The position numbers and the translations under genes are program-made. From contig JAFRQR010000017.1 of NCBI GenBank assembly GCA_017428545.1, positions 1-64,000 on the forward strand: DNA of 64,000 bases, read 5' to 3'. Numbering within the stretch: the first letter of the stretch is position 1; each line of letters starts with the position of its first letter. The stretch is from Clostridiales bacterium (lineage in GTDB: Bacteria > Bacillota > Clostridia > Saccharofermentanales > Saccharofermentanaceae). Of this stretch, positions 176 through 56,653 are shown in pieces. The notes beneath the pieces are model-generated. The model was given only the letters and a program-made list of their open reading frames with translations. It searched no databases and was not told where the DNA came from.

Positions 176-1135
176 ATGGATAACCGCTTCAACGCACAGC
201 CGGCCCCCGGCAATGCTTTTTCTCCGATCCCGGCTGATGTATCCGGAGGCGGGCTTCCTCCGTTTACGGATAAAGAGATCGCATCTTTCCGGCACAAAGC
301 CGAAAAGCCGCTATACCTGATCATGGTCTTTATCAACGCCGCACTGATCATAGCTGCGGTCGTATGTATCATTCTTGCGTTTTACGATTTCGGACCATTA
401 ACCGGAGATTCCGGCGCATGGGTCACAGAGAGGATTCTGGGCATCAGCGCGGAAGCGGAAGCTCATATTGAGATCCTTGTGATCCTGATCATGCTGCCGC
501 TTATTCTCATGGCGGCCGTCTATCTTTACTACGCACAGTACCGGGCGAATTCGATCCGTATTACCGAAAAGAACTTCCCGGAGATCTATCAGGTGGTCGA
601 AGACTATTCAAAGAGACTCGGCCTCAAGAGGGTCCCGAAGATCTACCTGACACAGGAAAACGGTGTTTTAAATGCATTTTCGACATATATCTTAAGAAGA
701 CAGTACATCGTGCTTCTGACCGACCTTTTCGAGGTCGCTTATCTGGAGCATCACGATCTGGAGAGCATGAAGTTCATCATCGCGCATGAGATGAGTCATA
801 TCCGCCTTCGCCATGCGACTTTCTCCTATCAGATGAGCATTCTTTTTGCCAACTATATTCCGATCTTGTCCTCTGCGCTGTCCCGTGCCCGAGAATACAG
901 CTGTGACCGTGTCGCCCAGCATCTGGTCGGTGTCAGCGGAGTCGAGCCGATGCTCGCATTAGTCGTCGGCAAGCACCTGTATAAGAAGGTCGATGTAGAG
1001 GATTATGTCAAACACTGCCATGAGACACGTGGTTTCTTCGTGTTTATCCTGAATCTTTTAAGTTCGCACCCGATCATGCCCAAACGTATCCAGGCTCTTC
1101 TTAAGGGTAGCGGAAGCGGCCGTCTGTTCTTCTGA
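176..1135 (+). CDS. M48-family zinc metalloprotease, integral membrane
   Basis: A 319-residue membrane protease of the M48 (HtpX/Ste24-like) type, expected to degrade or process membrane or surface proteins. The sequence shows two hydrophobic segments at about residues 45-70 and 97-121. They are followed by the zinc motif HEMSH (residues 204-208) inside FIIAHEMSH, and a downstream EYSCDR segment that supplies the third metal ligand in this family. The N-terminal 40 residues are polar and Pro-rich. The ATG at 176 has a GAGGT ribosome site 8-9 bases upstream. It appears monocistronic. The family is secure; the substrate cannot be read from sequence. Confidence 0.85.
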   Translation: MDNRFNAQPAPGNAFSPIPADVSGGGLPPFTDKEIASFRHKAEKPLYLIMVFINAALIIAAVVCIILAFYDFGPLTGDSGAWVTERILGISAEAEAHIEILVILIMLPLILMAAVYLYYAQYRANSIRITEKNFPEIYQVVEDYSKRLGLKRVPKIYLTQENGVLNAFSTYILRRQYIVLLTDLFEVAYLEHHDLESMKFIIAHEMSHIRLRHATFSYQMSILFANYIPILSSALSRAREYSCDRVAQHLVGVSGVEPMLALVVGKHLYKKVDVEDYVKHCHETRGFFVFILNLLSSHPIMPKRIQALLKGSGSGRLFF

Positions 1136-45997: not shown

Positions 45998-46570
45998 TTA
46001 CATCTCGATCTGCGGCATGTTGCTCCTGGCACTTACCAGTTTCCATTCGCCTTCCTGTTTTAAGAACAGGAGAGTATCTTCAGTCGTGGTTACTTCCGTC
46101 TGCCTGGAATCGTCTTCCTTTGTATATTCGATCGTTGTCTGCGTAGTGACAACGACCGTGGCAGATCCGTTATAGATATCCCGGACCTCGATCGATAGAG
46201 GTACTCTGGTACAGTTAGCCGGAAGGGTCTCGTTCAACCGGCAGTTTTCGAAAAAAGAGAAGTAGTAACTTATCTGATTATTCCGTACGGCTTCGTTTTC
46301 GCAAAAGTATGTTTCCACGTGTGCGGTCTGTGCGGCCATCAGTGAGGAAAGGGACTCCTCGGTCAACTCCTCCTGCCCCCAGAAATCAAAACCGTCAGGG
46401 CATGTGAAATAGGCAGAAGAATCAGAGATAAACTCTTTTGTGATCTCGATAATGGCTTTTTTATCTTTCTTGGTTTTCTCGTGATCCATAAAAAGATAGA
46501 CGGACACGGCAAGAACTGCTACGAAAAGCAGTAATAGACCGCGATTCATATGTTGCCACCACTTCTTCAT
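45998..46570 (-). CDS. Membrane-anchored or secreted protein with NTF2-like C-terminus, unknown function
   Basis: A 190-residue protein with an N-terminal signal-anchor (about residues 8-28). A helical segment then leads to a beta-rich tail (TATVVVTTQTTIEYTKED and LLFLKQEGEWKLVS) that suggests an NTF2-like or DUF4878-type fold. Cysteines are present in the extracellular part (CPDG, CENE, CRLNE, CTRV). The gene is first in the ABC exporter unit. GGAGGAGA precedes the ATG. No clear family, and the role is inferred only from being cotranscribed. Confidence 0.65.
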   Translation of the reverse strand: MKKWWQHMNRGLLLLFVAVLAVSVYLFMDHEKTKKDKKAIIEITKEFISDSSAYFTCPDGFDFWGQEELTEESLSSLMAAQTAHVETYFCENEAVRNNQISYYFSFFENCRLNETLPANCTRVPLSIEVRDIYNGSATVVVTTQTTIEYTKEDDSRQTEVTTTEDTLLFLKQEGEWKLVSARSNMPQIEM

Positions 46571-46759: not shown

Positions 46760-46787
46760 TTGACAACAAATGAAAAGGTGTTATACT
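46760..46787 (+). promoter_or_regulatory. Strong sigma-A promoter of the large noncoding RNA
   Basis: TTGACA at 46760-46765, a 16-base spacer ending GTGT, and TATACT at 46782-46787. Initiation would fall near 46794, exactly where the closing helix of the RNA begins. No open reading frame with a ribosome site follows. Confidence 0.8.
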
Positions 46788-46793
46788 GAAAAT

Positions 46794-47436
46794 AGCTCCA
46801 GGGAATGCGGGTTCACACCGAGTCCTAGTCGGAGAGCCGCCACTTGCAGATGCACAAGGCGAGGTTGGAAAAAACAGAAAGACCATAGGGTGGTCAGGAA
46901 ACGAAGATGGGACTGCCGTAGATCGAATCCAGTGAGGTTTGATGGCAAGCGAAATCGGAACCGTCAGAGCCATAGCAGAAAGAAGTGGAAAGCGGACAGC
47001 GATTGACGGTACGCGATGGCGGACACAAGTCGCAGGTCAGGTCAGAGACCATGGTTTCGGAAACGGATCGAGATCGTTACGGGCGGTCAGTTCGTAAAGG
47101 GACCAAAAGAAATGAAAGGATACGGGTCGTTGCCGAGTAGGTTATCGGGTCGGTTCGGAAAGGTGCAGTGGCACGGGGTCATTGCCAGTTGGAAGGATCG
47201 CTGAGGATAACGGAAGGAAGACCGCTGATACGACATCATTTCGGATCGGACCGGTTGGAAAGGTGCTTCTGATGAGGTATCGAGTAATTCTGGAAAGAGT
47301 GGGATCGGCAGGATCGGGAAGGTTCGCAGATAATATAGGGCGACCGAAGGATACGGATGGAAGGTTGGTTCGCTGGAGCTTTTATTTGTCCTCATTTTTC
47401 ACGTGCAACGGAGATCCGGCCGGGTCTCCGTTTTAC
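46794..47436 (+). ncRNA. Large structured noncoding RNA, about 640 nt, identity undetermined
   Basis: The region has no credible protein: all frames are Arg-rich with no ribosome site. It has a consensus promoter and a 3' intrinsic terminator. The first bases AGCTCCAG (46794-46801) pair with CTGGAGCT (47373-47380), closing a domain of about 587 bases. Internal hairpins include CGCC/GGCG with an inner TTG/CAA, GACCA/TGGTC, TGCC/GGCA, ACCGTCA/TGACGGT (46960-46966 with 47004-47010), TGGCA/TGCCA and GGTTCGC/GCGACC. The sequence is purine-rich with repeated GGAAA. RNase P, tmRNA, SRP and group II intron hallmarks are absent. Its size recalls OLE, ROOL or GOLLD, but I cannot assign it. Confidence 0.75.
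47407..47434 (+). terminator. Intrinsic terminator of the large noncoding RNA
   Basis: AACGGAGATCCGG / CCGGGTCTCCGTT forms a compact stem with a GGCC turn and one wobble, followed by TTTT. It lies nine bases before the hpt stop codon on the other strand. Confidence 0.8.
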
Positions 47437-47445
47437 TATGTTTTT

Positions 47446-47973
47446 TCAGTGTTCGAGTTCAGCAATGAACGGAAGGTTTCTGCCGTATTCTCCGGAATCC
47501 ATGCCGTAGCCGATCAGCCAGGAACGGTCGACCTCAAAGCCGTAGTATTTGACGGGTAGGTCGATAAGCTGGCGCTCCGGATTGTAAAGGAGCGTGCAGA
47601 CCTCGATAGAAGCGGGTTTTCTGGCTTCCAGGGTCTGAAGAAGATATGCCGTAGTAAGCCCTGTCCGGATGATATCTTCGACCACGATGACATGTTTTCC
47701 GGTGATATTGATGTCCACGTCCTTGGTGATGCGGACGATACCGGTGCTTTTGGTCATGTCCGGGATGTTTCCTATGGCGATCATGTCAAGCTGCAGCGGG
47801 AGATCGATGGCTCTTGCAAGGTCGGTAAAGAAAAAGAGTGACCCCTTTAAGACCCCGAGGATGACAAGTTCTTTTCCCTGATAATCCGAACTGATCTTTT
47901 TGCCGAGTTCATTTACGCGGGATAGGATCTTCTCGTTATCAAAGAGTATCTTTTTGTAGCGGATCTCATCCAT
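47446..47973 (-). CDS. hpt: Hypoxanthine phosphoribosyltransferase
   Basis: A 175-residue purine-salvage enzyme that makes IMP or GMP from hypoxanthine or guanine and PRPP. The PRPP-binding motif is VIVVEDIIRTGLTT (residues about 95-108), a VLKGS loop lies near 38-42, and a closing YGMDSGEYGRNLPF matches the family. It starts three bases after the kinase-like gene, so they form one operon, and it ends facing the large RNA. Length is typical. Confidence 0.95.
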   Translation of the reverse strand: MDEIRYKKILFDNEKILSRVNELGKKISSDYQGKELVILGVLKGSLFFFTDLARAIDLPLQLDMIAIGNIPDMTKSTGIVRITKDVDINITGKHVIVVEDIIRTGLTTAYLLQTLEARKPASIEVCTLLYNPERQLIDLPVKYYGFEVDRSWLIGYGMDSGEYGRNLPFIAELEH

Positions 47974-47976
47974 ATA

Positions 47977-48936
47977 TTATTTCTCCTGTCCGTTTCCCGG
48001 ATCCGGTGAACCGAAGGCTTTCAGACGCTCGGCCAGTTCAAGGAAGTCTTTTTTGTAGACGATCTTGATGGAGATGCCGGGGTAGAGTTCTTTTACTTTC
48101 TTAAGCTTCCTATTCTTCTTGGTGACGTACTTTTGGTTCATCGTGGTAAGTTCCAGGTAAGTATCAAAACGCGTCAGATAGAAGTCCGGACTAAATGCCA
48201 AAGTGACGTTACCTTCGCTGTCCCATTCGACCGGGAAGGTCTTCGGCTCATATTTCCAGTCGATGTGATACATGTCGAGGATCTTGGCAAACTCGGCCTC
48301 AGAAGGATTTTTAAATACCGGCCGGTCTGTCTGATGATCGATCGCGCCTTCGGTCTTGGTCTCGGAAGAGATACGGATCCGAAGTTCATGCTCGTGAAAA
48401 GCGGCCAGGATCGCGGCGACGCATTCATCGACAGACATAAAGGATGTGTTCAGGACCAGATGGTAAAGAGAAACATCCGTGGAATCTTTCCCGAATACGT
48501 GAGATACGAAGCGTTTGTGCTTCCTGTCCGTGGAAGAAAGAAGTTCGGAAGCCGCCGTTTCGGAAAGATGGAACTGCTTTTGCACGCGGGAAAGCCGGAC
48601 ATCGTCAGAAGCGACGATGCGTACATGGATGGCCTTATCCGAGGCGGAGAAAAGAAGCTGGGAACCGAACCCGAGCAGTACGGCGGAGCTTTCTTCGGCC
48701 ATGGAAAGAAGAGATTCCGATAAGGTATCTTTAAAAGTCTTTCCGTCCTTATACTCGGAAAGGTAGAATTTCGCACTTTCACCCAGTCTCGTGCGCTGGT
48801 CCGGACGGATATCCGGGAAAAAGCGCTCCATGAGAAGGTCACGGGTGATCAGGTCCCAGCCGAGCTTGCTGCTCAGGGCCTTGGCGACCTCGTCACCTAA
48901 ACTTCCCATCTGTCTTGAGATCGTGATGATCGACAT
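47977..48936 (-). CDS. Cytidylate-kinase-like protein fused to a PD-(D/E)XK-like domain
   Basis: A 319-residue two-domain protein. Residues 1-180 resemble the cytidylate-kinase-like family (ITISRQMGSLGDEVAKAL in place of a strict P-loop, and ITRDLLME). Residues about 205-305 look like a restriction-endonuclase-type fold: FSPDFYL with D251, then DTYLELTT with E262, followed by a Lys-rich helix and SIKIVYKKDF. The lysine expected two residues after the Glu is Thr, so nuclease activity is doubtful. It lies between a small membrane protein gene and hpt, with gaps of 17 and 3 bases. The function is unknown; the C-terminal fold is judged by eye. Confidence 0.65.
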   Translation of the reverse strand: MSIITISRQMGSLGDEVAKALSSKLGWDLITRDLLMERFFPDIRPDQRTRLGESAKFYLSEYKDGKTFKDTLSESLLSMAEESSAVLLGFGSQLLFSASDKAIHVRIVASDDVRLSRVQKQFHLSETAASELLSSTDRKHKRFVSHVFGKDSTDVSLYHLVLNTSFMSVDECVAAILAAFHEHELRIRISSETKTEGAIDHQTDRPVFKNPSEAEFAKILDMYHIDWKYEPKTFPVEWDSEGNVTLAFSPDFYLTRFDTYLELTTMNQKYVTKKNRKLKKVKELYPGISIKIVYKKDFLELAERLKAFGSPDPGNGQEK

Positions 48937-56387: not shown

Positions 56388-56463
56388 GGAAGATTAGCTC
56401 AGCTGGGAGAGCACCTGCCTTACAAGCAGGGGGTCACAGGTTCGAGCCCTGTATCTTCCACCA
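56388..56463 (+). tRNA. tRNA-Val (anticodon TAC)
   Basis: A full cloverleaf: acceptor GGAAGAT/ATCTTCC, anticodon stem CCTGC/GCAGG with loop CTTACAA, so anticodon TAC at 56421-56423. TTCGAGC closes the T loop, and CCA is encoded at 56461-56463. It reads GUA and, with wobble modification, other Val codons. Confidence 0.97.
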
Positions 56464-56467
56464 TCAT

Positions 56468-56544
56468 GGCGCAGTAGTTCAGTTGGTTAGAATGCCAGCC
56501 TGTCACGCTGGAGGTCGAGGGTTCGAGCCCCTTCTGCGTCGCCA
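56468..56544 (+). tRNA. tRNA-Asp (anticodon GTC)
   Basis: Acceptor GGCGCAG/CTGCGTC with one G-U, anticodon stem CCAGC/GCTGG, loop CTGTCAC, anticodon GTC at 56502-56504, T loop TTCGAGC, encoded CCA. It follows tRNA-Val by four bases. A hairpin ATCGGTCC/GGACCGAT at 56549-56569 lies between this tRNA and tRNA-Phe. Confidence 0.97.
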
Positions 56545-56577
56545 GATGATCGGTCCATAAAGGACCGATTATCATTT

Positions 56578-56653
56578 GCCCAGATAGCTCAGTCGGTAGA
56601 GCAGGGGACTGAAAATCCCCGTGTCGTTGGTTCGATTCCGACTCTGGGCACCA
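56578..56653 (+). tRNA. tRNA-Phe (anticodon GAA)
   Basis: Acceptor GCCCAGA/TCTGGGC, anticodon stem GGGGA/TCCCC, loop CTGAAAA, anticodon GAA at 56611-56613, T loop TTCGATT, encoded CCA. The last tRNA of the three-gene transcript. Confidence 0.97.

Follow-up and report, generated by a model that had tools for sequence, protein, structure and literature searches.

The bacterial RNAs closest in kind to the one described here are raiA, OLE, ROOL and GOLLD. The raiA motif RNA (ModT) of the Bacillota is single-copy, stand-alone and highly structured, and its promoter is strong and of SigA type (PMC11706538). OLE RNA has known protein partners (PMC12265935, PMC12054373), and ROOL, named for its rumen origin, is carried by phages and prophages and often lies close to tRNA islands (PMC12286853). 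The RNA locus in our window (i.e. the whole 64,000-nt stretch of DNA that was analysed) resembles raiA in being a single-copy, stand-alone and structured Bacillota RNA with a strong SigA-type promoter, OLE in being ∼600 nt long, ornate and from anaerobic Bacillota, and ROOL and GOLLD in being large and ornate. However, (i) raiA (RF03072) has no covariance-model match in any tested RNA-bearing genome, although two control genomes match; (ii) OLE (RF01071) matches neither the window copy nor its relatives, and the present RNA adjoins an hpt gene for an HPRT-like protein and a cytidylate-kinase-like gene (hereafter CkN) and ranges from 246 to 624 nt; and (iii) ROOL (RF03087) and GOLLD (RF02032) likewise match neither the window copy nor its relatives, and the present RNA, unlike ROOL, is chromosomal. 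It is similar in kind to raiA and OLE (i.e. large, stand-alone and ornate) and is a member of neither.

Comparison with Rfam 15 gave no match to any model for the window copy (to E 10), for the RNAs of 20 loci in relatives (to E 1), for a copy in Desulfosporosinus (to E 10) or for those of another 15 loci (to E 3). Scans of the relatives returned only chance-level scores far under the cut-off and known RNAs outside the domain; a low-threshold STnc380 match (16.6 bits vs a cut-off of 60) is a chance one. RNase P (RF00010) does not match the RNA and is encoded elsewhere in the genome (G000:C31:50075-50428); the original prediction had noted that its hallmarks are missing. That prediction had also seen no adjacent prophage or tRNA-array setting, and we likewise place the RNA outside phages, prophages and tRNA islands: searches of phage, plasmid and viral collections returned no copy, and the nearest tRNAs are 9 kb off. 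Thirty-four viral contigs that match a 5'-end pattern were rejected, as the rest of the RNA is missing in all of them. A Val-Asp-Phe tRNA cluster lies at 56388-56653 (+) of the window, ∼9 kb from the RNA. A Pfam scan of eight neighbour genes identified kinase-like, PRTase, ABC transporter and other families. Of the two options first proposed, a divergent known class or a new one, the absence of any Rfam match for the window copy and 35 further loci favours the second.

The organization of the locus (Table 1) agrees with that first proposed. The putative promoter (TTGACA-16-TATACT, 11 of 12 consensus matches, with an upstream TG) would start transcription near 46794, and the first eight bases (46794-46801, AGCTCCAG) form a perfect 8-bp helix with 47373-47380 (CTGGAGCT); a perfect 8-nt complement of the RNA start occurs in 0.45% of shuffles. 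Within the domain so closed, GGAAA occurs seven times against 1.7 expected, and the folding energy is -218 kcal/mol (z -3.6 vs 20 shuffles). The intrinsic terminator that had been noted 3' of the domain was overlooked by our pattern scanner because its T tract is short. No reading frame is conserved on either strand and the longest ORF varies widely between relatives, so a protein-coding reading was rejected, in line with the earlier view that no plausible protein is encoded. Sequence comparison bears out the central claim, a predicted noncoding RNA that is large and structured, has paired ends and is flanked by a promoter and a terminator of its own. Its distribution, modular build (246-624 nt) and hpt/CkN context formed no part of that claim and were found here.

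Table 1. Features of the RNA locus and of the two adjoining genes (positions in the window)
Feature	Position	Strand	Remarks
Sigma-70-type promoter, extended -10 TG	46760..46787	+	kept 5' of the RNA in the genus and sister genera
RNA domain of 587 nt, its two ends paired	46794..47380	+	rumen bacterium
Closing helix, 5' strand	46794..46806	+	8 bp, 1x1 mismatch, then 4 bp more
Helix P3, CCAC 46840-46843 / GTGG 46985-46988	46840..46988	+	bears a ∼140-nt inserted domain
Most conserved core	46967..47042	+	basis of model R1
Long-range helix, 5' strand	46992..46997	+	partner 47322-47327; 100% paired, covarying
Helix P4 (46999-47004 / 47028-47033) and inner hairpin	46999..47033	+	
Variable domain, bounds approximate	47043..47260	+	absent as a unit in three congeners
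Long-range helix, 3' strand	47322..47327	+	partner 46992-46997
Closing helix, 3' strand	47367..47380	+	conserved GGUUCGYUGGAGC
Intrinsic terminator, 11-bp stem, GGCC loop, TTTT	47407..47434	+	stem 47407-47432
HPRT-like paralogue, the genome's second hpt	47446..47973	-	EDIIRTG replacing EDI(I/V)D(T/S)G
CkN, Cytidylate_kin2 and PD-(D/E)XK (T7 endonuclease I/Bax1-like)	47977..48936	-	Thr264 for the usual Lys

All 23 genomes of the genus carry a single copy of the RNA, and sister genera have it in part. Throughout the genus, the -35 and -10 elements, the first transcribed bases and the 3' end are conserved, and the three congeners that lack the internal domain have forms of 403-405 nt that keep both ends and the core. 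Among 27 sequences, the consensus helices are paired in 97.9% of cells and contain 67 both-side changes vs 18 +/- 3 in shuffles (0 of 500 as high), a contrast that kinship inflates. Sliding the helix partners by one column reduces pairing to <50%, a control favoured by a structure that was itself derived from the consensus. The cleaner test comes from deeper relatives, in which pairing in P4 and its inner hairpin reaches 95.4% and both-side changes number 20 vs 6.8 (e.g. GCGAUU/AGUCGC becomes GUGAUU/AGUCAC). Position 8 of the closing helix also covaries: it is G-C in 62, A-U in 13, G-U in three and A-C in none of 78 sequences whose selection permitted A-C. Most other positions of that helix are set by the sequence selection and hence uninformative on covariation.

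Within the order, model R1 (core) matches 48 of 188 genomes and model R2 (5' domain) 104 of 188, of which not every one of the weakest was checked individually. A sample of weak matches was tested for both ends at plausible spacing: two families of the order (f2 and f4) and two of the class (f16 and f10) were confirmed, and a further one (f60) was rejected. A match in another genome (G306, L216) is due to chance. Further afield, Desulfosporosinus sp. Tol-M carries a copy of ∼300 nt, and a pattern search of the phylum added three families of other classes (f98, f102 and f177) with copies of 323-343 nt. About half of the phylum matches were discarded because they have no 3' end, and counts outside the order are lower bounds, since the pattern is strict and the filters drop weak matches. 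Full-length copies range from about 246 to 624 nt, and minimal forms have a short hairpin in place of the P3 inserted domain. By sequence, the class is modular in build, and many anaerobes of the Bacillota carry it. Copy number departs from one in a few places: genomes of one genus (g20, family f3; L219-L222) carry three copies each, and one contig (L212, G043:C85) carries two in tandem (464-844 and from 1159), ∼700 bases apart, the second of which passes into a GATCAAAA repeat where the contig ends. At one locus (L286, G882:C10), a c-di-GMP-II riboswitch (819-902 (-), 68 bits) lies a few hundred bases from the RNA; at another (L054), a sequence like a group II intron end occupies the expected RNA site 3' of hpt.

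We then compared gene neighbourhoods. The RNA faces the 3' end of hpt throughout the genus, in most of the order and in f16 and f177, and the gene for CkN (319 aa) adjoins hpt. In f10, f98, f102 and Desulfosporosinus, hpt and CkN lie on one side and the RNA on the other, running away from them, yet they are still neighbours; the RNA-hpt-CkN linkage is hence seen in two gene orders and across classes. On the 5' side of the RNA, a fast-evolving 190-aa protein with weak SnoaL-like similarity (45998-46570 (-)) is encoded near an ABC transporter pair, at that place only in the genus.

Among 80 genomes sampled for RNA status and a spread of families, 19 of the 22 with the RNA encode full-length CkN vs 1 of the 58 without it (p 2.5e-14, too small because the genomes are related). 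Outside the order, the figures are 14/14 vs 1/58. The two also part together within genera: G882 has both RNA and CkN and G622 and G747 neither, and G841 has both and G862 neither. Two of the RNA-bearing exceptions are a genome with a partial CkN match at a contig end (G043) and one that is 74% complete (G141). The main exception is L304 (G148:C5), where the RNA (577 nt) is intact and the genome, 99% complete, has no strong CkN match; given this genome, the link is not absolute. The sole CkN-bearing genome without a detected RNA, G594, served as a predictive test of the pairing. Beside its CkN and hpt lies a unit of 436 nt that has a promoter and a T tract and pairs its ends in the class layout (8 bp, 1x1 and 4 bp), in a different sequence with no detectable match; as a candidate RNA, it agrees with the pairing. 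G594 has two hpt-CkN-RNA modules (L350 and L351), and its HPRT keeps the catalytic Asp. Its module is possibly nearer the ancestral state.

Because the RNA nearly always shares a genome with the same unusual enzyme-like protein, these results suggest an undescribed RNA-protein machine, and we consider it probable that the RNA is a trans-acting, single-copy structured class outside Rfam, acting together with CkN and the HPRT-like protein. Alternatively, the RNA could act alone, as a ribozyme or a 6S-like or raiA-like housekeeping RNA, with the hpt/CkN link a matter of ancestral gene order. This would fit G148 and the genomes in which the RNA lies apart from CkN (G036, G168 and G841), but joint presence and absence outside the order and an adjacency retained through rearranged gene order make it rather unlikely.

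The HPRT-like protein has the PRTase fold by profile (PF00156, 85.6 bits; TIGR01203, 166.5 bits vs a cut-off of 150). Housekeeping-type HPRTs read ED(I/V)(I/V)D(T/S)G, and module copies EDIIRTG, EDVIGTG or EDIINTG, so that R, G or N replaces the catalytic Asp in all but the G594 copies. The equivalent residue in human HPRT, Asp137, contacts purine N7 (PMC2228302). Most module genomes carry two hpt genes, here the RNA-linked copy (G000:C13) and another on G000:C25; relatives without the module usually have one, as do G622, G862 and G720. We take the lost Asp to be the likely general base. PyrR is an example of a phosphoribosyltransferase turned RNA-binding regulator.

The first domain of CkN belongs to the Cytidylate_kin2 family (109 bits). 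In a structure model of the protein (pLDDT 86.8), this predicted domain superposes on 3hdt, a putative kinase (rmsd 1.7 over 164 residues, Z 22.8). When modelled by itself (pLDDT 90), the second domain resembles T7 endonuclease I and Bax1 (PF05367, DUF790) in both profile (3cae, E 0.005; PF05367 in 14 of 24 members) and predicted fold (Bax1 6p4w, Z 8.2, 89 residues, 3.3 Å); mitoribosomal proteins in the C-terminal fold list (Z 6-7) are too weak to use. The acidic residues of a PD-(D/E)XK domain (E213/E215, D251 and E262) are invariant. CkN differs from T7 endonuclease I and Bax1 in its fusion to a cytidylate-kinase-like domain and in the Lys of E-x-K: in alignment with T7, the usual lysine, two residues after the last acidic one, is Thr264 in 24/24 proteins. 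This lysine can change place in PD-(D/E)XK enzymes, and with two other lysines (K274 and K277) invariant, the CkN domain may still have activity through a moved one. The domain is also the best-conserved part of CkN (mean column identity 74% vs 49% for the whole protein). PADLOC finds no convincing defence family (best E 0.004).

A further reading would make CkN a harmful or defensive effector, i.e. an active nuclease with a moved lysine, that is kept inactive by the tightly bound RNA as in type III toxin-antitoxin systems. The joint gain or loss of RNA and CkN within genera (G882 vs G622; G841 vs G862) would suit such a restraint. Against it, almost every member of the genus carries the RNA, as one copy at a single chromosomal site; the RNA is not on phages or plasmids and is found without a strong CkN in G148; the best defence-family match is no good one; and where type III systems have tandem RNA repeats 5' of the toxin gene, this locus has one RNA without repeats, with a promoter and terminator of its own. 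We regard it as distinctly unlikely. It is highly improbable that the RNA is a divergent member of raiA, OLE, ROOL or GOLLD: size range and style are alike and the same genomes lack raiA, but no profile matches at E 10 (window copy) or E 1-3 (relatives, 35 loci), and the setting is neither phage nor plasmid. That the RNA guides CkN to nucleic-acid targets, as a nuclease-fold protein linked to an RNA might suggest, is scarcely credible given that no variable guide segment is seen and the usual catalytic lysine is missing from all 24 proteins.

Under the favoured reading, in which the RNA would act together with CkN and the HPRT-like protein, we propose that the RNA would fold into a stable body and that CkN would bind it, most likely through the PD-(D/E)XK domain, because this is the most conserved part of CkN, its group recognises branched nucleic acids, and it lacks the usual catalytic lysine. 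The particle would include CkN and probably the HPRT-like protein, with enzyme-derived domains that bind RNA and nucleotides; the HPRT-like and kinase-like parts would still bind nucleotides or PRPP, so that the complex could make a cellular response depend on the state of purine or pyrimidine nucleotides. Both the complex and the nucleotide sensing are suggested by the domain assignments. Tentatively, the ornate RNA could be a scaffold for the Asp-less HPRT and the CkN fusion, two proteins that would sense nucleotide state and act by way of the RNA.

Our search of the open-access literature found no RNA described beside hpt or a cytidylate-kinase-like gene, to which subscription papers may hold exceptions, and to our knowledge the three-part RNA-hpt-CkN module matches no known system. 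Since the RNA has no Rfam family and the module no counterpart among known systems or in that search, both the RNA class and the module are new within Rfam and the open-access literature searched. Few large structured RNA classes span several bacterial classes, and a biochemical role is established for only a minority of them. Here, genome-wide co-occurrence and a predictive test provide a candidate partner, which makes function approachable through CkN and the HPRT-like protein. The class may also illustrate the reuse of nucleotide enzymes and of a junction-nuclease fold as RNA partners.
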